This document shows, piece after piece, positions 4,435 through 19,379 of a DNA stretch of 64,000 nucleotides (its first letter is position 1; each line of letters begins with the position of its first letter). The translations under genes were made by a program, and so were the position numbers. The DNA lies in assembly GCA_021107755.1 (NCBI GenBank), contig JAIOSF010000004.1, positions 1 to 64,000 on the forward strand, given 5' to 3'. Under the pieces are notes generated by a model. It was not told the DNA's origin and did not search any database. It worked only from the letters and a program-made list of their open reading frames with translations. This stretch comes from Arcobacteraceae bacterium. Its GTDB lineage: Bacteria; Campylobacterota; Campylobacteria; Campylobacterales; Arcobacteraceae.

Positions 4435-5499
4435 TCATACTATAATAGTTTCTTTTACATCTTCAAAAACTTTTGAGTTGCAAGATACTTCTATTTTTTC
4501 ATCAAGAATCTTTTCTATAACTATTATACAACTAAGATCATATGGGTTGTGTGTAAGTTGGTTCCTCAAACTTAATTCAGCTTCAAAATTGAGTGGATTG
4601 TATATAAGTGCATAAATAGACCCATAGTTTGTATTTGCAATAGTATTAAAATATTCTAAAGAGATGATTTTTACTTCATCACGATTAAGATAATGGATAT
4701 TTTTGACTGACTTTTCAATTCTTCCTGCAGTTTTTTTGTTTTTTAATGTTGAGTAGCATAAAAAATATGATGGGATTACCTCTTTATTGATTGTTATTTT
4801 TCCATGAAGAAGTCTATAGTTTAAAAATCGTTGTTTTACTATTTCATAATTCTCCAAACAATCTCTTTGTTTGTAAAGTTCTAATCTCTCCTCAATAGAT
4901 TCTGGTTGTACTTGTCTTCCTATAGGCATTATAAGTTCATCAGCTAGTTTATTTTGATAGACCCTTTGGGCATTCAGTCCATATAAACAACCACAATAAT
5001 TTTGTCTATAAAGATTATTTTGTTTTACCTCTTTTCCTTGAAGCTCAACCCCATTACCACTTCGATAGTCTTTAAAAATAAATTCACAGTTATATTTATT
5101 TGAGAGTTGATTTCCAATTTTTTCTAATTTATCTTGTGATTTCTTTGGACTAATAAGAAGTGTAGTTGTAAATTTATCGTGACCTAAAGTAAGTGCTTTT
5201 TCTACACTTACTTTTAATCTATCATCAAAACACACGGTACATCTATCACCTTTTTCAGGCTCATTTTCAAGCCCTTTTGTAATATTTAACCAATATTTTA
5301 AATTGTATTCTCCCTCAATAAGTTCAATACCAAGTTTTTTACAACTATATTGAACATCTTGAAGCCTGAGTCTATATTCACTATATGGATGTATATTTGG
5401 ATCATAAAAAAAACCAACAAAAGTTTCATTTGGATATTCCTCTTGTAATCTTTGTAAAAAATAGTGACTATCTACACTACAGCAAATATGAACTAACAT
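4435..5499 (-). CDS. queH: epoxyqueuosine reductase QueH with C-terminal extension
   Basis: Catalyses the last step of queuosine synthesis in tRNA, the cobalamin-independent reduction of epoxyqueuosine. The first 190 residues hold the DUF208/QueH cysteine pattern: HICCSVDS at 4-11, RCTVCFDDRL near 87-96, and YRQNYCGCLYG near 163-173. These would bind the iron-sulfur cluster and the catalytic metal. The protein is 354 residues where the core family is about 200, so the last 150 residues are an extra region with no motif I recognise. Its ATG overlaps the end of bioC by seven bases, with AAGGGAT as ribosome site. Confidence 0.88.
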   Translation of the reverse strand: MLVHICCSVDSHYFLQRLQEEYPNETFVGFFYDPNIHPYSEYRLRLQDVQYSCKKLGIELIEGEYNLKYWLNITKGLENEPEKGDRCTVCFDDRLKVSVEKALTLGHDKFTTTLLISPKKSQDKLEKIGNQLSNKYNCEFIFKDYRSGNGVELQGKEVKQNNLYRQNYCGCLYGLNAQRVYQNKLADELIMPIGRQVQPESIEERLELYKQRDCLENYEIVKQRFLNYRLLHGKITINKEVIPSYFLCYSTLKNKKTAGRIEKSVKNIHYLNRDEVKIISLEYFNTIANTNYGSIYALIYNPLNFEAELSLRNQLTHNPYDLSCIIVIEKILDEKIEVSCNSKVFEDVKETIIV

Positions 5500-6185
5500 T
5501 TTATCCCTTTTACAAATATAACTTCAAATTCCAAATAATTTAAAGTATAGTTTTTATAAAGTTGTTTTGCTTCTGTAAATGTTAGTTTATTCCCACCACT
5601 AACTCCTGAGTTTTTTATATAATCGAAAAGCTTTTTTTTACTATCAAATTCGAGTTTATAGTTGAGTATTTCATATTTACAATCAAAGAGACTATCAAAA
5701 GATTGTTTTATAGAATCTACATCTAATATAGGTGATTTTTTTCCAGTGAGTGAAAAAATAGTTTTAAAAGTATTGGAGGTAAAAAGTACAAGATTTATAT
5801 TGGTTGTAATCTTTGCTAATTGTTTTGCAATTTTATTTAAGTTTTGTGACCATTGTAAAGCAGATGAGGACAATACCATATCATAATTATCATTTTTAAT
5901 ATTGTCAATAAACTCATTACTATCAAAATCTAAACACACTATCTCTAGATTTTTTTCTCTAGGATGAATATCACACATACTAGCAGAAAAATCTATCGCT
6001 TTGTAGTAGTCAAAATTAAAATCAATATTTTTAAATACTTGTCCTGAACCACATCCTAACTCTAATATTCTTTTAGGTTGAAAAGGAAGTTCTCTTACTA
6101 ATGCTTTAGAGATAATCTGTTGTATGATATTATAATGGTTATATTCTTTTGCATGCTTTGAAAATTGTTCATTAACTATATTCAA
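5493..6185 (-). CDS. bioC: malonyl-ACP O-methyltransferase BioC-like
   Basis: S-adenosylmethionine methyltransferase that would cap malonyl-ACP to prime pimelate synthesis for biotin. Motif I is ILELGCGSGQVFKNI, followed by an acidic strand-2 residue in YYKAIDFSASM and MVLSSSALQWSQNL, typical of BioC (the LQW signature). I chose the TTG start at 6185. It overlaps the upstream ydcF stop (TTGA), has GAGAGG nine bases before it, and gives NIVNEQFSKHAKEY as the usual BioC opening. The upstream ATGs at 6236 and 6212 would overlap ydcF by 31-55 bases. Length is 230 residues. bioF lies separately at 53.4 kb. Confidence 0.82.
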   Translation of the reverse strand: MNIVNEQFSKHAKEYNHYNIIQQIISKALVRELPFQPKRILELGCGSGQVFKNIDFNFDYYKAIDFSASMCDIHPREKNLEIVCLDFDSNEFIDNIKNDNYDMVLSSSALQWSQNLNKIAKQLAKITTNINLVLFTSNTFKTIFSLTGKKSPILDVDSIKQSFDSLFDCKYEILNYKLEFDSKKKLFDYIKNSGVSGGNKLTFTEAKQLYKNYTLNYLEFEVIFVKGIKC

Positions 6186-6892
6186 TCTATTTGTCCTCTC
6201 AATTTCCCCCATAATATCCCTAAATATTCGTGCCAAGCAATTTCTGTTTTTTGTAAATTGCCACCGTTTGGTATAGAAAAAATATCTATATTACTGTAAC
6301 TATTATAATTTGCAGGGGCAGCTATAGGGTGAAGACCTTCTTTTTGGAATAAAGCCATGGCTCTTGGCATATGATGAGCTGCTGTTACTAAAATAAAAGG
6401 CTTTTCTCCTAAAAGTTGTTTGATTTCAATAGCTTCCTCTTTAGTATCTTTAGGATTTGAATGGATGATAATATCTTCTTTAGGAATTTGAATTTGATAT
6501 AAAATATTTGCAGTACGAACAGCTTCAGGTATAGCGTATCCACTTTTATACCCAGAAGTAATTATTTTAGCGTTAGGTATTTTATAATAGAGCTTTAGAA
6601 CTTCCCAAGCTCTATTTTCCATATCTCCTCCTACAAGTAAAATATATTTTACATCTTTTGGTATCTCTTCAAGTTTTTTATAGGTTGTAGCTATTGGTTT
6701 TATTAATGAGTTCGCAAATGGAGAATAACTAATTAAAGCTATCCACAAGATACTTATAGTTAAAAGTATTTTCGCACTTTTAATTCTATTGATATATAAA
6801 AGTATAAGACCAATTATTGCTAAAAAAAGTCCAATGCTCAATGGCATTACCATAGCACTTATAATTTTTTTTAGTATAAAAGCAAACTCCAT
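6182..6892 (-). CDS. YdcF/SanA/ElyC family membrane protein (DUF218)
   Basis: Has 236 residues with two N-terminal membrane helices (about 10-32 and 38-62), followed by a DUF218 domain. That domain shows ILLVGGD, then KIITSGYKSG, then the closing VTAAHHMPRAMALFQKEG. This ElyC/YdcF layout is linked in enterobacteria to envelope integrity and peptidoglycan precursor supply, but the biochemical activity is unsettled. The start is ATG with AAGGAT upstream. It is first gene of the ydcF-bioC-queH overlapping operon and is divergent from yraN 40 bases away. Confidence 0.85.
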   Translation of the reverse strand: MEFAFILKKIISAMVMPLSIGLFLAIIGLILLYINRIKSAKILLTISILWIALISYSPFANSLIKPIATTYKKLEEIPKDVKYILLVGGDMENRAWEVLKLYYKIPNAKIITSGYKSGYAIPEAVRTANILYQIQIPKEDIIIHSNPKDTKEEAIEIKQLLGEKPFILVTAAHHMPRAMALFQKEGLHPIAAPANYNSYSNIDIFSIPNGGNLQKTEIAWHEYLGILWGKLRGQID

Positions 6893-6932
6893 AAATATCC
6901 TTATAACTTAAATTAAGATAGTATTTTACCTA

Positions 6933-7280
6933 ATGGATACTAAAACTACTAACACTACCAATAAGGGAAAATATTTTGAAACTAAGGCTGTTGATTTCTT
7001 GCAGTCAAATGGTTTTAAAATAATAGAGCAAAACTATCATGCAAAAAAACTAGGTGAGATAGATATTATTGCACAAAAAGATAGTGTATATCATTTTGTA
7101 GAGGTGAAAAGTGGAGAAAGTTTTGAAGCTGTTTACAACATAACACCTCAAAAGCTTTATAAACTTTATAGGGCAATAGATTATTATCTTAAAGAGAAAA
7201 AACTAGATGTTGCCTACTGTATAGATGCGATAATATTTGCCAAAGAAGAATTAGAATATTTGGAGAATATTACTCTTTAG
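6933..7280 (+). CDS. YraN family protein (UPF0102, endonuclease-like fold)
   Basis: Small 115-residue protein with the UPF0102 core NYHAKKLGEIDIIAQKD followed by YHFVEVKS. This is the E-x(n)-D-x(n)-ExK pattern of PD-(D/E)XK nucleases. The physiological role of the family is not established. Its last 11 bases overlap the 3' end of convergent ftsW. No clear Shine-Dalgarno is seen before the ATG, and TATTTT five bases upstream could act as a -10 giving a leaderless message. Confidence 0.88.
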   Translation: MDTKTTNTTNKGKYFETKAVDFLQSNGFKIIEQNYHAKKLGEIDIIAQKDSVYHFVEVKSGESFEAVYNITPQKLYKLYRAIDYYLKEKKLDVAYCIDAIIFAKEELEYLENITL

Positions 7281-8502
7281 TATTTTCTTTTTTTGGCTCT
7301 TTAGGGATACTTCTACTAATAGATAACACCATCCCAATAGCAATTGAGATTCCCAACATGGAACTCCCCCCATAACTTAAAAATGGTACGGCAATCCCTT
7401 TAATTGGTATCATCCCGGAGATTCCATAAGAGTTGATTAAAAAAGCGATACTAACCATTAGTCCAATACCTAATGTAAAAAGATGGTATTTGGGATTTTT
7501 AACTCGTCTACTTGTACGAAAAACTCTAAAGATGATAGTAAATAGAATTAAAACAATGGTTAAAAAACCTATAAAACCAATCTCTTCTGTGATACCTGCT
7601 AATACAAAATCTGTATGAACTTCACTTAAAAAGCCAAGTTTAAGTGAACCATTCCCTATCCCCTCACCAAAATACCCACCATTATTTATGGCATTGAGGG
7701 AATTACCTACTTGATAAGGTTCTGGAAACTCTTCTATTCTCAAAGATGTTGCAATACTATTTGGCATAAACGACAGTACTCCATCTTGTACCATACTCCA
7801 CCAACTTTTTACCCTAGTGATTCTGTGTGGAAAAAGGAGAATTAAGCTTGCTAGGCCAACAATAGCTATACCTATTAAAGAGGCAAATATTTTCCAACTT
7901 CTATTTGCAAATATTAACATTATAAATAAAATAGCAGCGAGAAGAACAACTTGCCCTAAATCTTTTTGTAGTACAGCAATTAAAAATACAGAAAAACTAA
8001 ATACTAAAGCATAGGGTGCCAAAACTTTCAACTCCTCTTTAAAAGAAAGTTTATCAAGATCAAGAAGTTTTCTATGAAATGACCATGCAAGATAATAGAT
8101 AAATCCAATTTTAAAAAACTCAACAGGTGAGATAGAGATACCAGGGAGTCGTATCCACCTTTTTGCACCTCCTGATTCCGTGACCATAGATGCTGGAAGT
8201 ATCTGCATAAGTATCATTAAAAAAAGGAAAAATAAAAATAAAAACCAACCAAGTTTTGGGATAAGAATATCAGGTTTAATTTGAGATAAACTCCACATAA
8301 TAAGGATTGCTAAAGTTCCTGTAAAAAGTTGTCTTAAAAAAAAGTGAAATTGTGTGTAATCCCAGTAAACAACTGTATAAATTGATAATGAATAAGAGAA
8401 TAATATACTAATAATGATGAGTGCTGAGCTTAAAAAAAACAGTGTATAATCTGGTTGATTGTTGTCTGTTAAGGATTTAATCATATTTTTGATAGAATTC
8501 AT
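7270..8502 (-). CDS. ftsW: FtsW-type SEDS peptidoglycan glycosyltransferase
   Basis: Integral membrane glycosyltransferase that polymerises lipid II, probably for septal wall because its PBP2b-type partner ftsI is divergently adjacent. Visible signatures are the GGAKRWIRLPGISISPVEFFKIG block, EVHTDFVLAGITEEIGFIG (FtsW-type), and the closing PFLSYGGSSMLGISIAIGMVL. About ten membrane helices are apparent. I chose the ATG at 8502, which gives 410 residues. TATAAT lies six bases before it, so the transcript would be leaderless. A TTG at 8538 is in frame and also has a TATAAT seven bases upstream, so the N terminus is uncertain by 12 residues. RodA is the alternative name. Confidence 0.88.
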   Translation of the reverse strand: MNSIKNMIKSLTDNNQPDYTLFFLSSALIIISILFSYSLSIYTVVYWDYTQFHFFLRQLFTGTLAILIMWSLSQIKPDILIPKLGWFLFLFFLFLMILMQILPASMVTESGGAKRWIRLPGISISPVEFFKIGFIYYLAWSFHRKLLDLDKLSFKEELKVLAPYALVFSFSVFLIAVLQKDLGQVVLLAAILFIMLIFANRSWKIFASLIGIAIVGLASLILLFPHRITRVKSWWSMVQDGVLSFMPNSIATSLRIEEFPEPYQVGNSLNAINNGGYFGEGIGNGSLKLGFLSEVHTDFVLAGITEEIGFIGFLTIVLILFTIIFRVFRTSRRVKNPKYHLFTLGIGLMVSIAFLINSYGISGMIPIKGIAVPFLSYGGSSMLGISIAIGMVLSISRSIPKEPKKENTKE

Positions 8503-10367: not shown

Positions 10368-11618
10368 TTATTTTGGAGAGAAAAGTATTTTAGCTCTTTG
10401 TTGTTTATAGTATGGGGAGTTGAGTTTTTCTAGTTGCTTTGGTAAAAGAGGAGAACCGTTTAAAATAGCACCTTGAAAAAGATCTTTATTGATGAGGTTA
10501 CTATCAAGTATAATTTTGTTTTCATGACACATCTCACATGATTTTGCTTTTCTTATAACAGTATGTGGCGAAGTTGGTATAAATGCTTCTAATTTTTTAC
10601 CATCAATTTGTGACACATCATCAAAAATCATCTCCCCTTTTTCATTTTTGAAGCTGATTCTATATTGATATCTTGGTATTGCTATTTTAATTTTTCCATT
10701 CTCATCATTTATTAAAAAGAAATTCTCCCATCTTTTAAATCTCCAACCACTATACCAAACTCCATCTTCTAATTTGTTACTTAGATAATCTGGCATTTGA
10801 GGCTTTAACTCTGGGTTTTTTAGAGCTTTCTTTAAAAACTTTTCTAAATATCTATCTTCTTGGACTGTGAGCCTTTTCCACTGTTTATAGTTTTTTGTAT
10901 CATCCCTTAAAACATTAAGTTCATAGTTACTAATATTCCATGCACTATGACAAGTATTACAAGAAATATTGGTATGATATTCTTGATGGTTTTGTTTTGA
11001 AATATCACTATGGCAAGATTTACAATCAACTTTATCTTCCCATTTTTTATCGTTACCATTTTTATGACAATCTATACAATTCAAACCTTTTTGATGATGT
11101 ATATCTGGTGTTAGATGATGAAAATCTATCCCATAGGGTCGTTTAGGGTAGTTTCCTTCTTTTGTTAGTGGACTTCTATATGCTTTGTCATAGTCATGTG
11201 GAAAAAGTCCTAGATAGTCTGTCCCTATATAGTTATTATTATGACATTTGAGACATTTTTCTTGTGCAGGTTTTGCTTTAAAACTATCTTGTTTATTTAC
11301 ATGGGGACTATGACAAGCTAAACAAAGGTTTTGTGTAGGGTTTATCTCTTTACTTGTGAGATGACATTGTAAACATTTTCTTCGTAAAAAATCATCAACT
11401 AAATCAGCTGGTTTATCTATAGTGTCTTTGGGCATTGGTAAAGTTTGTAAAGTAACATTGCTATCTTTTATCCCCCATGCAGACCTAGTAATATTTATCT
11501 CATTTTTCATAGTAAAATGGTTTGAGTTTTTACATTGTTCCATTTTTTTAGGATGACAAGTGATACACTCATTTGAGTATAAAACCAATGGTAATAAAAA
11601 TAGTATGGTTAATTTCAT
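10368..11618 (-). CDS. octahaem c-type cytochrome
   Basis: A 416-residue exported protein with an N-terminal signal sequence (LTILFLLPLVLYSN) and eight CXXCH haem sites: CITCH, CLQCH, CLACH, CLKCH, CIDCH, CKSCH, CNTCH and CEMCH. The first seven are in the first 225 residues and the eighth is near 365, leaving a haem-free stretch of about 140 residues. No CXXCK or CX15CH site is seen, which argues against octahaem tetrathionate reductase and MccA sulfite reductase. Its ATG overlaps the stop of the upstream 12-haem gene (ATGA). The two are therefore likely partners in periplasmic electron transfer, and the donor or acceptor is unknown. Confidence 0.9.
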   Translation of the reverse strand: MKLTILFLLPLVLYSNECITCHPKKMEQCKNSNHFTMKNEINITRSAWGIKDSNVTLQTLPMPKDTIDKPADLVDDFLRRKCLQCHLTSKEINPTQNLCLACHSPHVNKQDSFKAKPAQEKCLKCHNNNYIGTDYLGLFPHDYDKAYRSPLTKEGNYPKRPYGIDFHHLTPDIHHQKGLNCIDCHKNGNDKKWEDKVDCKSCHSDISKQNHQEYHTNISCNTCHSAWNISNYELNVLRDDTKNYKQWKRLTVQEDRYLEKFLKKALKNPELKPQMPDYLSNKLEDGVWYSGWRFKRWENFFLINDENGKIKIAIPRYQYRISFKNEKGEMIFDDVSQIDGKKLEAFIPTSPHTVIRKAKSCEMCHENKIILDSNLINKDLFQGAILNGSPLLPKQLEKLNSPYYKQQRAKILFSPK

Positions 11619-13375
11619 TTTAATACCTCTTTACTACAAGAAGTTTTTTTATCATAAAAAAGTTTTTTACTTTTTTGAAAATCTTTATAGATTGTATCAT
11701 CCCATTTATTATGGCAGATGATACATTTATATGCTTCTATTATTTTATTTACCTCTTTTTTATTAAAACCTCTTGCATCTTTTCTTGAAAAGCTTTGAAA
11801 CTGTTTTCCCTCTTTTGAAATTAGGGCATCGATTGGATAGTTAATAGGAAGTCCATCTTCTTTACTTTGATAGTGGGGATTAAAAGTGACATTGTTATCT
11901 TTTATATCTAAAATTCCAGCTCCAAGTCCTAATGTTTGTGGATTGAAGTGGCAGTCAATACAAGTTCGACTCTCTTTTTGTGTGGTGTGTGGATCCCAAG
12001 CTGCAAAGGCAAAAGCGTGAAATTCATCTACTTTTACATCTTTATCATAAATGGTTGCTATAACTTGACATCCAGGAGCTGTTGGCATTATCTTTTTATT
12101 GTACCCAATAGCAAGAGCTGGGGATTCATATCGAAGATAACTTCTAAGCTCCATCCATTTTCCTTTTGTTGGTTTATGCTTTATCCAATCATATTGCTTC
12201 CCATCTTTAAAGTACACTTCATGGCAACCATAACAGCTAGGTATCCACGAGCTATGACATGCTGTACAATCTAATCTTTCATGATTTTTTGAAGTATGAT
12301 AGGGTGCATCACTCATTTTTGTCAAGTCAAACCTTTGACCATCTGATTTTCTATAAAAGTCTATTTTTTCATCTACTTTTTGTAAGTTATAAATAGGTGA
12401 ATTTTTCTTTTTGGTCACAGCTATCTCTTTAGAGTAGGGGATATCACCATTAAGTGCACTTAAGAGTCCTGCAAGACCAAATTGGTTTGATGGTTTAAAT
12501 TGTGGATCATGACAATCTTTACAAGAGATATCCACAGCATCTTCCATATGGGCATGGTGCTTTCCATCTCCCATCACTCCAGCTTCCGTATGGCAATCGA
12601 TACAATCCATCTTTGTACTTGTATGATGTATATCAGCAGGAAGTTCATAGTAGTATCTATTTTTATCTATTTGATGGGTGAGGTTACCACCTTTATACGG
12701 AGTTCCGTACCCCTCACTTTCAAATTTCCCAAAATAAGAGAGTCCTATACGGTTTGAACGATTGTGACATTTAAGACAGTTTGAACTAGGAATTTTAGTA
12801 GAGAGTTTAGGATGTTTGAGTTTTAATATATCATCTTTTATTGCTATTTTTTGTCCATCTTCTACTCTATGACAATCAACACAACCACCACCTCTGGCAG
12901 TAAAACCTGTATTTTTAAATATCTCCTCTTTTTGGTTGATATGACAAGCAGCACACAGTTTACTAAAATGGTCTTCTGCTAAAGATTGTTCTTGGGTTGG
13001 TTTGTTTTTTAAATACTCTATCCCTGTTGATTTTTCTATAGTTTTTGTTTCACCAAATTGGTATTTTAAGACATCTAGTACACCATGCATATTACTCATA
13101 ATAGATTTATCAACACGATTGATTATATCTTGATGACATTTCCCACAAAACATACTAGTATGTTCGAGTCTACTTGGATTTAAAACAATATTTTTATGGG
13201 CTTCTTCTTTTGAAGTTGCTTTTGGTTCACCTCCATGACATGAGGCACAACCAAATTCTTTGTAGGGGTGATAGTTATCAATAGCAGTTGTATTTTGATG
13301 ACAATTTAAACAGTTATCAATATTTTGTCCATACAAAAAAAGTGTAAAGTAAAAAAAGAGTAATAGAAATTTCAT
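11615..13375 (-). CDS. dodecahaem c-type cytochrome
   Basis: A 586-residue exported protein with signal sequence FLLLFFYFTLFLYG and twelve CXXCH sites spread along the chain: CLNCH, CASCH, CGKCH, CAACH, CVDCH, CLKCH, CIDCH, CKDCH, CTACH, CYGCH, CIDCH and CIICH. Extra histidines, for example in DGKHHAHMEDAVDISC, can give bis-His ligation. It is followed with a four-base overlap by the octahaem gene. Upstream lies the terminator of the rhodanese gene. TATAAT at 13382-13387 is six bases from the ATG, suggesting an independent, leaderless transcript. The enzymatic role is not recognisable. Context suggests a sulfur compound redox partner. Confidence 0.9.
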   Translation of the reverse strand: MKFLLLFFYFTLFLYGQNIDNCLNCHQNTTAIDNYHPYKEFGCASCHGGEPKATSKEEAHKNIVLNPSRLEHTSMFCGKCHQDIINRVDKSIMSNMHGVLDVLKYQFGETKTIEKSTGIEYLKNKPTQEQSLAEDHFSKLCAACHINQKEEIFKNTGFTARGGGCVDCHRVEDGQKIAIKDDILKLKHPKLSTKIPSSNCLKCHNRSNRIGLSYFGKFESEGYGTPYKGGNLTHQIDKNRYYYELPADIHHTSTKMDCIDCHTEAGVMGDGKHHAHMEDAVDISCKDCHDPQFKPSNQFGLAGLLSALNGDIPYSKEIAVTKKKNSPIYNLQKVDEKIDFYRKSDGQRFDLTKMSDAPYHTSKNHERLDCTACHSSWIPSCYGCHEVYFKDGKQYDWIKHKPTKGKWMELRSYLRYESPALAIGYNKKIMPTAPGCQVIATIYDKDVKVDEFHAFAFAAWDPHTTQKESRTCIDCHFNPQTLGLGAGILDIKDNNVTFNPHYQSKEDGLPINYPIDALISKEGKQFQSFSRKDARGFNKKEVNKIIEAYKCIICHNKWDDTIYKDFQKSKKLFYDKKTSCSKEVLK

Positions 13376-13452: not shown

Positions 13453-14040
13453 CTATTTACTAAAATACATTTTTTCTTTGTGATTTTTATATCCCCAAGA
13501 CTCTGGAGGACAAGTATTTTTCCATCCAGTATTTGTAGTTCTTTGTTTATATTTTTTATCTTTTCCACCTTCAAAACCATCAACTATAGTTGCTACATTC
13601 ATATAACCCTCTTTAGCCATCAGTTTTGATGTATAGATACTTCTTTTTCCTGATCTACACATAAAGACAATTTTATCTTTTTTAGTTAAACCTTTTGCTT
13701 TCATAGCAGCTTCAACTTCTTGAACAAAGTTTTTGTTCATAGTTCTTACATATCTTTGTTTTTTTTCATCCCATTTAGTAAGTGTTATTAGTACTATAGG
13801 TATATTTTTATCAACCATTGGTGTAGAACCAACATATTGAAATTCATAAGGTGTTCTTACATCAATAAAAAGAATTTTATCACCCTCTTTTTTTACAAGT
13901 TCATAAGCCTCTACAGCTGTAAGATAGATACCTTGTGGTGTTTGTTTTTTTGCATTTGTTGGTGCAGGTGCAGCCATACTTAAGGTTGTTGCCATTGCCA
14001 CTACCATAAAGCTAGCAATAATTGTGTGAAATAATTTCAT
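13453..14040 (-). CDS. exported rhodanese-like sulfurtransferase
   Basis: A 195-residue protein with a signal peptide (about 1-23, cleavage after MAA or APA) and one rhodanese domain. The domain shows ILFIDVRTPYEFQYVG near 56-71 and the active-site loop CRSGKRS, with Cys128 as the predicted persulfide carrier. An unusual insertion (TKWDEKKQRYVRTMNKNFVQ) sits mid-domain. The C terminus ends TTNTGWKNTCPPESWGYKNH, a tail shared by some periplasmic rhodaneses. It should act in the periplasm, moving sulfane sulfur near the YeeE/YedE channel. It has AGGAGA before the ATG and its own terminator downstream. Confidence 0.88.
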   Translation of the reverse strand: MKLFHTIIASFMVVAMATTLSMAAPAPTNAKKQTPQGIYLTAVEAYELVKKEGDKILFIDVRTPYEFQYVGSTPMVDKNIPIVLITLTKWDEKKQRYVRTMNKNFVQEVEAAMKAKGLTKKDKIVFMCRSGKRSIYTSKLMAKEGYMNVATIVDGFEGGKDKKYKQRTTNTGWKNTCPPESWGYKNHKEKMYFSK

Positions 14041-14173: not shown

Positions 14174-14518
14174 TTAACAACCCATATCTGGTGCTTCTTC
14201 AATCACTTCTTGAACTGGTGACTCTTCAACTATTTGATTTATCTCTATACTTTCTTGAGGTTTAAATTTAGCTTCCATAATTTTATTATATAGAGTAAAC
14301 CCAATATTACTATTTGGATCAACTTGAATTGCCATTTTTGCAAATTTTGTTGCTGTAATATAATCATTTTTATCTAAAGCTTTGTTCCCATTTGTTATAT
14401 ATTTCTGAATCATTTGTTCTTTTTTTGCAGTATAACTATCATCACCTGTTGATAAGACTATTATGACTACTGCTGTTAGTAGTAGTACTAGCCCTATAAT
14501 ACCTGATATCGCTCTCAT
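14174..14518 (-). CDS. small membrane-anchored TPR-like protein
   Basis: A 114-residue protein with one N-terminal membrane helix (about 4-24). A TPR-like helical pair follows (YITNGNKALDKNDYITATKFAKMAIQVDPNS) and then an acidic tail ending DMGC. The start overlaps the upstream YeeE/YedE stop by four bases (ATGA), tying it to the sulfur-transport operon. No catalytic motif is seen. It may be a small accessory or scaffold for the transporter, a role inferred only from position. Confidence 0.75.
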   Translation of the reverse strand: MRAISGIIGLVLLLTAVVIIVLSTGDDSYTAKKEQMIQKYITNGNKALDKNDYITATKFAKMAIQVDPNSNIGFTLYNKIMEAKFKPQESIEINQIVEESPVQEVIEEAPDMGC

Positions 14519-15120
14519 ATATCATCCCCTTTTTTATCTCTAATTGATTTCATATATCTCATAAATGTTATTAGTCCTAGACCCAATACAATTGTAATAA
14601 GGTATGAAGTATAAATATCTCCGCCTAATACACTATGAATTGTGTATCTACCTACATTTGTTGAGTTTGCAAACTCAATAATTGCATCAAAATTTATGAA
14701 ATACACATACATACCAGCTATCACACCTAGTAAAAATGCAACAGCATCTAATTTTCCTGAAGAAAAACCAACTAAAGCTGTCCCTGGACACCATCCTGAC
14801 ATAACCATTCCTAGTCCAAACAATGCACCACCTGCTAAGTAAGGCCATAGGTAAGTTGTAGGTATAAAGATTTGATTATAATCAATCCAACCCATATAAG
14901 ATGCAATGATTATCCAAGTAGATATTGTTAAAATAGCACTAATCATCATATCTGAAACCTTAGTATTTCTAAAGTACATAATAGGTGCTATATTTATTGA
15001 TCTACCATATCCAGCCCGCTCAATTATAAATCCAAATGCCATCCCTATAAATAATCCATAAAATAGGTTTAAATTCGAGTCAATTGCCCCTGTTGTAAAT
15101 AAAGGATAAGTTGTTTCCAT
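14515..15120 (-). CDS. YeeE/YedE family transporter, second half
   Basis: A 201-residue multi-helix membrane protein carrying GWCPGTALVGFSSGKLDA, the cysteine-containing signature of the YeeE/YedE (sulfur transport) family whose structurally known members import thiosulfate. With the adjacent 171-residue protein it makes up the two pseudo-symmetric halves that are fused in longer members. The start is ATG with GGAGAGAACA upstream, 12 bases after the previous gene. The substrate (thiosulfate or another sulfur species) is inferred from family and context. Confidence 0.88.
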   Translation of the reverse strand: METTYPLFTTGAIDSNLNLFYGLFIGMAFGFIIERAGYGRSINIAPIMYFRNTKVSDMMISAILTISTWIIIASYMGWIDYNQIFIPTTYLWPYLAGGALFGLGMVMSGWCPGTALVGFSSGKLDAVAFLLGVIAGMYVYFINFDAIIEFANSTNVGRYTIHSVLGGDIYTSYLITIVLGLGLITFMRYMKSIRDKKGDDI

Positions 15121-15132
15121 TTGTTCTCTCCT

Positions 15133-15648
15133 TTACTTCACATTTTTCCATTGTTTTTTAAACAAAGGAGCAAATAGGAATCCAGCACCAAAAGCTGCTA
15201 ACATAAAAATCCATGCACCTACACTAAAGGTAGCTGCCCCATCAAGTGCTTGACCACTTGTACATCCTCTTGCTAGTCTTGATGCAACAGCGATAATTAC
15301 ACCACCTAAAAAAGCCCAAAAAAGTCTTTTAAAAGCAGGATAATCTTCCCCTCTATCAATACCACTTTTGATTCTTCCTGCAAGTGCGGCACTTAAAAAA
15401 CCACCTAAAAATATCCCAACAGATTCTACAACTGTCCAGTTTGCTAAGGCATTTCCATCTTTTAGATAATTTATTACATAGGCATTTTGTGCAAACGAAG
15501 AATCAACTAAATATGTTAATTGTGCTGTTACTCTAGCAAAAGTTCCACTAGCACCCATCCCTTGACCTGCAACCATAAAACTTATAAAAATAGCAGTACC
15601 AAGTACAAAACCAGCAATAACAGGGTGCCAGTATTTATTATTATTCAT
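15133..15648 (-). CDS. YeeE/YedE family transporter, first half
   Basis: A 171-residue membrane protein with about four to five helices and the signature ASRLARGCTSGQALDGAA, the other conserved cysteine motif of the YeeE/YedE sulfur-transport family. Encoded just before its partner half, it probably forms one permeation unit with it. The conserved cysteines relay thiosulfate-type anions in characterised homologues. The start is ATG with AGGAGA upstream. It follows the deformylase-like gene by 38 bases. Confidence 0.88.
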   Translation of the reverse strand: MNNNKYWHPVIAGFVLGTAIFISFMVAGQGMGASGTFARVTAQLTYLVDSSFAQNAYVINYLKDGNALANWTVVESVGIFLGGFLSAALAGRIKSGIDRGEDYPAFKRLFWAFLGGVIIAVASRLARGCTSGQALDGAATFSVGAWIFMLAAFGAGFLFAPLFKKQWKNVK

Positions 15649-15686: not shown

Positions 15687-16496
15687 TCAAGTAACTAAAA
15701 AGAAAGAAAGAACCATCAATACAGTTAACTTTATAAAGCTAATAGTTAATGTGCCTATTAAATTTCCTATTTGGCAACTAGTACAAGAAGAATATCTCTT
15801 CCCCTCATAGTAGCCGTAAACTAAATAAATAAAACCATTTATCACTGTAGCATACGAGATATATTTTTGATAATTCCATATCTCTTGTAAAGTTGTTTCA
15901 TCACTTATAAAAAATGATCCAACTAATAACAGAGCAATAACTATTAAAAATATATTTGATAATTTATTCAAATAATCTTTATATGAAACTATCGGACAAC
16001 TCTCAGGTATCGCTACATTTGAACCAAACTCTAGTTTTTTCTCAAACCTTTTTTTCTCATCTTTAGTTAATTTATTTAAAAATGTTGAACCAAAAGTGTA
16101 ATCAATCTTTCGTTGTAATAAAATAGAGAGAGAACCATCAGCTTTGAGTGAATGTTGATTTGAGTCTCTATCTTGATAAATCACACTTATTTTTTCATAT
16201 CTTGGTACTTTTGCACTAAGATTTGGGAAATAAGATGTAGTTTCTTCTGTAGTTACCTTTCCTATAGGGTTTATAACCCTTGGATTAATAAGTTCCAAAA
16301 AATCATCATCTTGCTTTATAATAACAACATTAAAATAGTTTCCTATTTGATAAGCTGCAAGTCCATCCAATTGATTTGCTTTAATCGTATCTTTTAAGTC
16401 CTCAATTAAAGTAAATAAATCATCATCGAAAACTCTTACATCAGTTGCATACTCAACACTCGGAGGTGTTGGGTATGTGATAATATCTTTAACCAA
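15687..16496 (-). CDS. membrane-anchored, catalytically degenerate peptide deformylase-like protein
   Basis: A 269-residue fusion. Residues 1-150 follow the peptide deformylase fold: ITYPTPPSVEYA opening and DGLAAYQIG at 44-52 for the motif GxGLAAxQxG. Motif 2 (EGCLS) reads YFPNLS, with Asn92 in place of the metal cysteine. Motif 3 (QHExDHLxG) reads QRKIDYTFG at 128-136, so both histidines and the catalytic glutamate are Arg129, Tyr133 and Lys130. Deformylase activity is therefore not expected. Residues 182-269 add three membrane helices with SSCTSCQ between the last two. The start is TTG, two bases after the 56-residue gene. A role in the sulfur locus is inferred from context. Confidence 0.8.
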   Translation of the reverse strand: MVKDIITYPTPPSVEYATDVRVFDDDLFTLIEDLKDTIKANQLDGLAAYQIGNYFNVVIIKQDDDFLELINPRVINPIGKVTTEETTSYFPNLSAKVPRYEKISVIYQDRDSNQHSLKADGSLSILLQRKIDYTFGSTFLNKLTKDEKKRFEKKLEFGSNVAIPESCPIVSYKDYLNKLSNIFLIVIALLLVGSFFISDETTLQEIWNYQKYISYATVINGFIYLVYGYYEGKRYSSCTSCQIGNLIGTLTISFIKLTVLMVLSFFLVT

Positions 16497-16498
16497 TT

Positions 16499-16669
16499 TT
16501 AGTGACTTTTACCAACAACAATTATCATTTTTAAATTGATAACTACAAATCTGATAAATTGCCAAATCACACAAGTTCTCATTCTTTTTGCGAATGGACC
16601 AGGAGTCATTGTTGTAAAATTTTGACTATATGCTTTTATGTTTTTTTCTTCTTCTTTAACTTTTGCCAT
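16499..16669 (-). CDS. 56-residue small membrane-associated protein
   Basis: Short gene between the SQR-like and deformylase-like genes. ATG is preceded by AAGGAAATAC. The protein has a charged start (AKVKEEEKNIKAYSQ), a TMTPGPFAKRMRTC block and a hydrophobic C-terminal half (VIWQFIRFVVINLKMIIVVG) that could be one membrane segment. The next gene starts two bases after its stop and the previous one ends 43 bases before it, so it sits in the operon. I do not recognise the family. Good ribosome site, spacing and composition support it as real. Confidence 0.7.
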   Translation of the reverse strand: MAKVKEEEKNIKAYSQNFTTMTPGPFAKRMRTCVIWQFIRFVVINLKMIIVVGKSH

Positions 16670-16712: not shown

Positions 16713-18182
16713 CTATTCAGGAATCATAGTCCATCCCATTTTTAGTTTTGCTTTCCATAGGAATAAGTAATGTAAAATATGTTTAATCCAATGCCCAGCA
16801 AGACCAATCTCTCCAAAAGTATAATCTGTATCTCTCCCAGTTCCTGGATATTTTTCAAAATCAGGAACAACAGGATAGATAGTCATAGCAGCAGCAGTAC
16901 CATCAAAGATACCTTTACCAGCACTGGCTACACAAGCTGCACCCATCTCTGCCATACTTGCCTCATGTAGTGGAGCATCTTTCCCTTTTAATATTCTGTC
17001 ACAAATACTATGTGCAACAGTTTTTCCCATAATACCAGATGGCATACCTGTTCTTGGAGGTGTTGGATTGATTGCAGTTCCATTTGGAGAACTCATAGGT
17101 TTTGAGATTGTGTGTGGTGGTGCAAAAGCAATACCACAAGCAAATATATTTTCATATGTTGGGTTTTGATATGTTTTTGGCCAATCTGAAGCTTTCCAAT
17201 TTTCATAAGCACCAGCTGCGTAGTTTGCATCAACTTTTAAGAATCCATTTGGAGCAAAAATTGTATCAGTGATATCACTACCATCTTTATCAATAGCTTT
17301 AATTCCAACACCAGCAAAAGGTGGGATCAACATAGAGAAGTCAAACTCCTCTTCACCCATACTACCATCAAGAAGTTCGTAAGATACTTTACCACTTTCT
17401 ACTTTATTTACATGTGCTCCAATAATCCAATCAACTCCTCTTTCTGTGAAAAGTGATTCTGCAAATATTTTAGAACTTACAGCATAACCCATAGTTTTCA
17501 TATGTAGTCCACCAACACCAAAGTCACCTAAGAAAGACTCATTTGATATCCATTTGATATCTGCTAGGTCTCTTACTCCTGCTTTGCTTAGCTCATGTTC
17601 AATATTAAAGATATACTCAAAAGCGGCACCTTGACATGTGCACATACCGTGACCAGTTCCTATTAAGAACTTTTGTCTTTGACCCTCTTTCATTTTTTTG
17701 ATACATTTTTCTAGTTCATGACTTGCGTGATGCGCGTGGTCTGCTGTACATACAGATACTGTATGCTCACCTAAGTTGCTCCCTTCTCCAAGTCCAGGAG
17801 TTGCACCAAAGTTAAGTTTTGGTCCAGTTGCATTAATAAGATAATCATACTCTAACTCTTCAGTTTTACCAGCATTCGCAACATCTGTAAACTCAATAGT
17901 TACAAACTCTTTATCACTTCCCTCTTTACCATTTGGATGGATAGATACAGCTTTTGCTTGCTTGTAAGTGATTCCTGCTTTTTTATATACAGGTGCTAAA
18001 TCAAATGTTACATCTTCAGGTGTCATTTGACCAACACCTACCCAAATGTTTGATGGTATCCAATTCCATTTTGAATTTGGTGTTACCACTACTACTTCAT
18101 GAGCACTTCCTAGCCATTTAGCTGCAAATGTTGCTGCTGTGTGACCTGAAACACCGCCTCCAAGTACGATTAATCTTGCCAT
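16713..18182 (-). CDS. sulfide:quinone oxidoreductase / flavocytochrome c dehydrogenase-like flavoprotein
   Basis: A 489-residue FAD disulfide-oxidoreductase family protein. The dinucleotide-binding GGGVSGHTAA is at 8-17, ATGPKLNFG near 118-126, and the closing FAD segment ENIFACGIAF near 344-353. Cysteines suited to redox chemistry are Cys145, Cys160, the CTC at 181-183 and Cys349. There is no signal peptide. The last 30 residues (HWIKHILHYLFLWKAKLKMGW) are amphipathic or hydrophobic, which suits a monotopic enzyme feeding quinone. Sulfide oxidation is the family role. The exact SQR type is not assigned, and no cytochrome c subunit of FCSD is adjacent. It is first gene of the sulfur operon, with AAGGGG upstream. 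Confidence 0.82.
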   Translation of the reverse strand: MARLIVLGGGVSGHTAATFAAKWLGSAHEVVVVTPNSKWNWIPSNIWVGVGQMTPEDVTFDLAPVYKKAGITYKQAKAVSIHPNGKEGSDKEFVTIEFTDVANAGKTEELEYDYLINATGPKLNFGATPGLGEGSNLGEHTVSVCTADHAHHASHELEKCIKKMKEGQRQKFLIGTGHGMCTCQGAAFEYIFNIEHELSKAGVRDLADIKWISNESFLGDFGVGGLHMKTMGYAVSSKIFAESLFTERGVDWIIGAHVNKVESGKVSYELLDGSMGEEEFDFSMLIPPFAGVGIKAIDKDGSDITDTIFAPNGFLKVDANYAAGAYENWKASDWPKTYQNPTYENIFACGIAFAPPHTISKPMSSPNGTAINPTPPRTGMPSGIMGKTVAHSICDRILKGKDAPLHEASMAEMGAACVASAGKGIFDGTAAAMTIYPVVPDFEKYPGTGRDTDYTFGEIGLAGHWIKHILHYLFLWKAKLKMGWTMIPE

Positions 18183-18614: not shown

Positions 18615-19379
18615 TTACTCCTTATCTTTTAATGCAATTGCAGTTTTATTTCGTTGTTGTTTTAATTCCATATCTATATATTTATAGTTTTTATCTATTT
18701 GTTGTTTGTTTAATGCTAGTGTAATTCTATTAGAACTATCTGGTTTATATTCATAGATATTGATATCATTGTTATAAATAGAGAGTCGAATAGGTGTTGC
18801 AATAGAATATGTGCTAATTATTGCATCATCATTTAAAATATTTTTTATTTGTCCAAAATACTCTTGTGTCCATAATGTTCTATTTACTTCACTACTAAAA
18901 GCGTCTTGATATACTATATCAAAGAGTATCTTTTTGTTGTTTAAAATTTTTAAATATTCTCTAGCATCACCATGGTATATTTCAATTTTACACTTTTTAT
19001 CTTCATAATATAAGTTTTGTGAAATTTCATGAATAATAGTTTTTAAAGATTCAAACTCTTTTGGAAATGTGAAGTCTTTTATACTATGAAGTAACGCTAA
19101 ATCAAATTCTGGAGAGTAAATATTGACTTTTATATCTAAGTTATTTGTTTGTATATAATATAAGGTTGCGAAACTATTATATCCAATACCAAAACAGATA
19201 TCTAAGATAGTTAATTCTTTTTTATCTTTATGATAATGAAAAGCTGGAATGACATGTTTTGAAAGAGACTCATTTAAAGCTCCCTCTTTGACACTATGAT
19301 AGTGTTGATCAAATTGTTTGCTATAAAGTGTATGGCTCCCATCACTGGTTGTAATAAGTTCTATTGCCCAGCTCCCCAC
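18615..19379 (-). CDS. mnmD: MnmD/MnmC-like tRNA wobble-uridine methyltransferase
   Basis: A 254-residue methyltransferase resembling the N-terminal half of MnmC, which methylates 5-aminomethyl-2-thiouridine at position 34 of tRNA. Visible signatures are GALNESLSKHV, ILDICFGIGYNSFATLYYI (motif I), YHGDAREYLK, and IVYQDAFSSEVNRTLWTQEYF, the MnmC-specific D-F-P/S-x region. The oxidase half of bifunctional MnmC is absent, as in other monofunctional members. It overlaps the previous gene by 19 bases. Confidence 0.85.
   Translation of the reverse strand: MGSWAIELITTSDGSHTLYSKQFDQHYHSVKEGALNESLSKHVIPAFHYHKDKKELTILDICFGIGYNSFATLYYIQTNNLDIKVNIYSPEFDLALLHSIKDFTFPKEFESLKTIIHEISQNLYYEDKKCKIEIYHGDAREYLKILNNKKILFDIVYQDAFSSEVNRTLWTQEYFGQIKNILNDDAIISTYSIATPIRLSIYNNDINIYEYKPDSSNRITLALNKQQIDKNYKYIDMELKQQRNKTAIALKDKE

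Follow-up and report, generated by a model that had tools for sequence, protein, structure and literature searches.

The gene described here lies in a window of 64,000 nucleotides (the whole stretch of DNA that was analysed, from an Arcobacteraceae bacterium) and encodes a peptide deformylase (PDF) fold that has lost its metal site and is joined to three membrane helices (Table 1). There is about an even chance that this protein, called here the dead PDF, serves a sulfide:quinone oxidoreductase (SQR, probably type IV) of chemolithotrophic Campylobacterota as a membrane-anchored accessory protein without enzymatic activity. The partnership is supported by genome context, which makes the dead PDF probably an unrecognised partner of SQR, the enzyme with which sulfide oxidation begins in the chemolithotrophs that dominate vents and sulfidic sediments.

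Table 1. Features of the dead-PDF gene and its neighbours, in window positions
Feature	Position	Strand	Basis or remark
Dead PDF domain with three-helix membrane domain carrying CxxC	15687..16496	-	ORF, 269 aa, TTG start
PDF-fold domain, residues 3-148	16053..16490	-	Pfam PF01327 and genome search match, identical coordinates
Membrane helix 1, residues 171-194	15915..15986	-	Hydropathy and AlphaFold (blocks 181-220, pLDDT about 89-90)
Membrane helix 2, residues 200-234	15795..15899	-	Hydropathy and AlphaFold
Membrane helix 3, residues 236-268	15693..15791	-	Hydropathy and AlphaFold
Cys167 (Cys-Pro), juxtamembrane, ahead of helix 1	15996..15998	-	Kept in 89/92 homologues
C238-T-S-C241 (CxxC), between helices 2 and 3 at their predicted cytoplasmic end	15774..15785	-	92/92 homologues
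Former motif 2, E85-T86-T87-S88-Y89-F90-P91 for EGCLSxP; metal Cys replaced by Thr87	16224..16244	-	Alignments
Former motif 3, Q128-R129-K130-I131-D132-Y133 for QHExxH	16098..16115	-	Alignments
SQR-like flavoprotein, 489 aa, probably type IV, cysteines 145, 183, 417	16713..18182	-	phmmer to Aquifex SQR 3hyv, E 2e-38
Unannotated 56-aa protein (MAKVKEEEKNIKAYSQNFTTMTPGPFAKRMRTCVIWQFIRFVVINLKMIIVVGKSH)	16499..16669	-	Stop 2 bases before dead-PDF start
YeeE/YedE-type sulfur transporter half, next gene	15133..15648	-	Pfam Sulf_transp 1.2e-18
Other YeeE/YedE-type half	14515..15120	-	Pfam Sulf_transp 1.1e-15

The window ORF matched the Pfam Pep_deformylase profile over residues 3-148 with an E-value of 8.9e-31 and a score of 107 bits (cut-off 22.8), and the match covered profile positions 2-155 of 156, so it is not due to chance. 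An hhalign comparison of the window protein with 11 active-type Campylobacterota PDFs of the window's bacterial family gave a probability of 99.8% over residues 1-155. The whole domain was alignable with Campylobacterota PDFs at about 34-36% identity, with motif 1, E85, R99, Q128 and D132 shared. In contrast, the dead PDF differs from PDF (PF01327; TIGR00079) in the metal ligands, the catalytic Glu, the C-terminal three-helix CxxC domain and the NCBIfam scores, which were 73.7 bits for the equivalog TIGR00079 (cut-off 103.95) and below all other NCBIfam PDF cut-offs as well. Weak sequence matches were found with divergent PDF-fold proteins of solved structure outside the housekeeping enzyme, such as the RIIA-RIIB membrane-associated protein (3uwa) and orf60T (5mtc); these matches were limited to the PDF part and included none of the three-helix CxxC domain. 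AlphaFold with an alignment of three sequences modelled the PDF part of the window protein poorly (mean pLDDT 54.5), so the model was not used for a fold search; its helices alone were used, and fold and pocket geometry were taken from the sequence only.

Motif 1 of the window protein is L43-D-G-L-A-A-Y-Q50-I-G, which is the DGLAAYQIG reported in the preliminary description, save that Leu stands at the first Gly of GxGLAAxQ. That description had assigned the metal Cys to Asn92, a position that had to be corrected because the alignments put Thr87 opposite the Cys of EGCLS, five residues away; its motif 3 residues, Arg129, Lys130 and Tyr133, agreed with the alignment of QHExxH. Among 92 aligned relatives, which include two named MAG loci (Sulfurimonas and Helicobacteraceae), position 87 was occupied by Thr in 64, Ser in 17, Asp in 10 and Asn in one, and position 129 by Arg in 77, Gln in 10 and His in five. 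Cys at position 87, Glu at position 130 and His at position 133 were each found in 0/92. The set of Cys, His and His ligands with the catalytic Glu that defines the enzyme was incomplete in the window protein and in 92/92 relatives, and these alignments bear out the earlier reading of a catalytically dead PDF. Retained deformylase activity through an unusual metal site, which the domain-wide similarity and the public annotation of the Sulfurovum copy as 'peptide deformylase' would favour, is very unlikely and hardly to be entertained, since the metal Cys is replaced by Thr, Ser, Asp or Asn, Glu130 and His133 are never seen, and an intact PDF is separately encoded in the genome at C12:5575-6057 (genome profile search).

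Other parts of the fold are kept, as motif 1 residues A48 and Q50 were found in 90/92 and 85/92 relatives, and the structural residues N71, E85, R99, Q128 and D132 also survive. The former pocket positions differ among the six GTDB-level families in which the protein was found (f1, f4, f7, f8, f9 and f11), with Asp87 and Met133 in f8, while parts of f7 and f4 carry Gln at position 129 or 130. An anion pocket formed by T87, R129, K130 and Y133 was considered and not adopted because those positions vary between families, whereas the cysteines of the membrane part do not.

The three membrane helices and the CTSC that had been described after the PDF domain were recovered here, with hydropathy and the AlphaFold helices in agreement and CTSC corresponding to C238-T-S-C241. 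Both of these cysteines, whose conservation had been left for checking, are invariant (Table 1). Cys167 before helix 1 is a further conserved cysteine that had been missed, and the only three copies from which it is absent (L091, L112 and L115) are not linked to SQR. Other conserved residues of the membrane part were E231 (91/92) and N245 (89/92). The loop charges were +1.6 on the C167 side, +1.2 on the CxxC side and -0.7 in the loop that joins helices 1 and 2; by the positive-inside rule, C167 and the CxxC are predicted to lie on the cytoplasmic membrane face and the N-terminal PDF fold in the cytoplasm. A search of Pfam and the PDB with the membrane domain alone gave no meaningful match (best E-values 0.003-0.7, unrelated and taken as chance). 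In close pairs, dN/dS ran from 0.03 to 0.15 over the PDF domain and from 0.05 to 0.28 over the membrane part, and the overall range of 0.03-0.28 indicates purifying selection on both domains. As the pocket positions vary by family and the cysteines are constant, the core function would reside in the cysteines.

In an even draw of 397 Campylobacterota genomes, the dead PDF was present in 79 genomes belonging to 20 genera. Of the 104 genomes in the family to which the window belongs, six had a full-length relative and a seventh had a fragment. Named relatives were a Sulfurimonas MAG, a Helicobacteraceae MAG and Sulfurovum mangrovi. A tree built against Campylobacterota PDFs and E. coli only placed the dead PDFs in a single clade, separate from the true PDFs, with a support of 100/100, and the three-helix membrane domain was fused in every member of the clade. 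The fusion is therefore not confined to one genome, being joined in all six families that have the protein. Overall, the repurposed fold suggested in the preliminary description is well supported by the loss of the metal site in 92 homologues and by the fusion across six families, because neither an active site retained in most homologues nor a membrane part restricted to this genome was found.

The viral contigs searched contained no relatives of the dead PDF, and the sole relative in the plasmid search was on a replicon of Sulfurovum mangrovi (NZ_CP087125.1, a 395-kb 'plasmid'), which carries an SQR unit at 5134-7816 (L139). This replicon also has rpsI and rplM, which suggests a chromid or a misassigned piece of chromosome. 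Its annotation splits the dead PDF into two 'peptide deformylase' genes, and the reading frame looks broken. A pseudogene was rejected on the basis of dN/dS and taxonomic breadth, this broken frame being a single case.

The flavoprotein encoded upstream has three cysteines, C145, C183 and C417, that align with the three cysteines of the Aquifex SQR 3hyv. In PMC9666304, type IV SQRs are reported as the exception in having Ala ahead of the third Cys, and Ala416 of the window SQR precedes C417 in the same way. The window SQR is thus probably type IV, an assignment made from Ala416-Cys417. It shares the SQR cysteines and the Ala-Cys pair with type IV SQR (SqrD) as given for Sulfurimonas (PMC4584964) and Thiocapsa (PMC9666304). 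PMC4584964 states that type IV SQR is common among Epsilonproteobacteria and conserved in the genus Sulfurimonas. Further upstream of SQR, an MnmC2-like tRNA methyltransferase gene, below the NCBIfam cut-off, was found at 18615-19379 on the minus strand of the window.

The small gene between SQR and the dead PDF belongs to a group of proteins of ~55 aa that are basic and hydrophobic, and carry the motif RTCxxWQxxRFxxxNxKM...KSH; a homologue of the window protein gave no Pfam match. Almost wherever this SQR occurs, a gene of this group accompanies it, whether or not the dead PDF is present. Neighbourhoods were counted over 93 dead-PDF loci, of which 77 had SQR upstream on the same strand; the ~55-aa gene was also present at 77/93, and the gene order at 77/93 was SQR, ~55-aa gene and then dead PDF. 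This SQR was found in 111 of the 397 sampled genomes, including 79/79 with the dead PDF (Fisher p about 1e-57, uncorrected for ancestry), and confounding of this co-occurrence by ancestry counts against the SQR-partner reading. SQR was present without the dead PDF in 32/111 genomes, which shows that the dead PDF is not needed for SQR function, and 15 dead-PDF copies were not adjacent to SQR. As the ~55-aa gene stays with SQR where the dead PDF is absent, the pairing of SQR with the ~55-aa gene appears to be the more ancient one, to which the dead PDF would be an accessory.

In three genomes, a three-helix TCTGC protein of ~100 aa with no PDF domain was encoded directly downstream of SQR and the ~55-aa gene (G071 at L041, G039 at L042 and G037 at L043). 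These proteins were found through a search with the membrane domain only and through reading of SQR loci without the dead PDF. Their homology is indicated by modest profile E-values of 4e-8 to 3e-7 (small set searched), by 1.1e-6 for G039 in the membrane-domain search and by their identical position. The occurrence of the three-helix CxxC protein alone at this place shows that the membrane module is separable.

For an accessory protein of SQR, the following course may be proposed. A duplicated PDF lost its metal site once and carries the three-helix membrane domain at its C-terminus, as the single clade with the fusion in every member shows. By gene order and co-occurrence, SQR, the ~55-aa membrane-associated protein and the dead PDF are encoded as one unit. 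C167 and the CxxC may take sulfane sulfur from, or swap disulfides with, the SQR/polysulfide system, and the PDF fold may serve as a docking or ligand-holding scaffold. More tentatively, it is possible that SQR of Campylobacterota functions as a hitherto undescribed complex in the membrane, or is under the control of one, comprising SQR, a ~55-aa basic membrane-associated subunit and a three-helix cysteine protein fused to a metal-free deformylase fold that binds sulfur or peptide. Such a complex, if it exists, would couple sulfide oxidation at the membrane to cytoplasmic sulfane-sulfur delivery or signalling. The adjoining ~55-aa gene and the survival of motif 1 and the structural residues after loss of the metal site would also fit an assembly factor, in which the dead pocket would still bind peptide N-termini and hold the N-terminus of the ~55-aa protein or of SQR at the membrane during biogenesis. 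However, motif 1 is also structural and the invariant CxxC is left unexplained by such a factor, which is therefore considered unlikely.

The main rival to the SQR-partner reading is a membrane sensor, and it concerns the genes that follow the dead PDF in one family. A hybrid histidine kinase (HisKA, HATPase, REC and Hpt) was encoded directly after the dead PDF at 37 of the 39 SQR-linked f7 loci and also at L003 and L004, and the kinase gene is itself followed by one for a response regulator. The kinase has no membrane span by hydropathy, so that membrane sensing would have to be supplied by another protein. The cysteines or the remodelled PDF pocket would then sense sulfide, polysulfide or the redox state and pass the signal to this adjacent soluble kinase, which would control sulfur genes. 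In addition, a MerR-type regulator was near 7 copies away from SQR (L083-L085, L077, L078, L097 and L122). Copies away from SQR also had an AhpD-like CxxC gene nearby at 6 loci and a DsrE-like gene at L083 and L084, which counts in favour of the SQR-partner reading; the names AhpD, MerR and DsrE come from reading of the sequences and not from a profile search. However, no hybrid kinase was found beside the dead PDF in f1, f4, f8, f9 and f11, although the protein and its cysteines are conserved in these five families, and the window genome gave no full-length match to the kinase. A sensor is thus somewhat doubtful.

The SQR-partner reading also bears on annotation. The lost metal site, the cysteine-bearing membrane part and the SQR operon together make the label 'peptide deformylase' misleading; where it is applied, as in the Sulfurovum mangrovi copy, it conceals the link with SQR and leads to a wrong count of deformylases in these genomes. 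Neither of the Sulfurimonas papers PMC4584964 and PMC7952632 mentions a deformylase, and the open-licence literature gave no paper tying a deformylase-like gene to SQR and nothing relevant for deformylase with Sulfurimonas. Differences between the SQR types in the handling of their products are acknowledged to be unsettled (PMC4584964). Direct genetic targets are now offered by two apparently unremarked proteins with a link to this SQR, the dead metalloenzyme fold and the tiny basic protein.

Finally, the preliminary description had suggested that the protein is perhaps a ligand-binding or redox sensor coupled to the sulfur transporter, which would make it a sensor or subunit of the YeeE/YedE-type transporter. 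In the window, both YeeE/YedE halves are indeed encoded 38 bases downstream of the dead PDF on the same strand. However, this pair followed the dead PDF at only 1/93 loci, that of the window, and was absent from the other 92, where gene and cysteines are conserved all the same. SQR and the ~55-aa protein are the conserved partners in its place. The coupling is quite unlikely and is disfavoured as a general function; at most, a lineage-specific link may exist. The wider neighbourhood of the window is sulfur-flavoured, with a rhodanese at 13453-14040. Downstream of the sulfur genes, two multihaem cytochrome-like genes were found at 10368-13375 on the minus strand, with their best NCBIfam matches, below cut-off, to ExtM/ExtO, which are families of the selenite/tellurite reduction operon.
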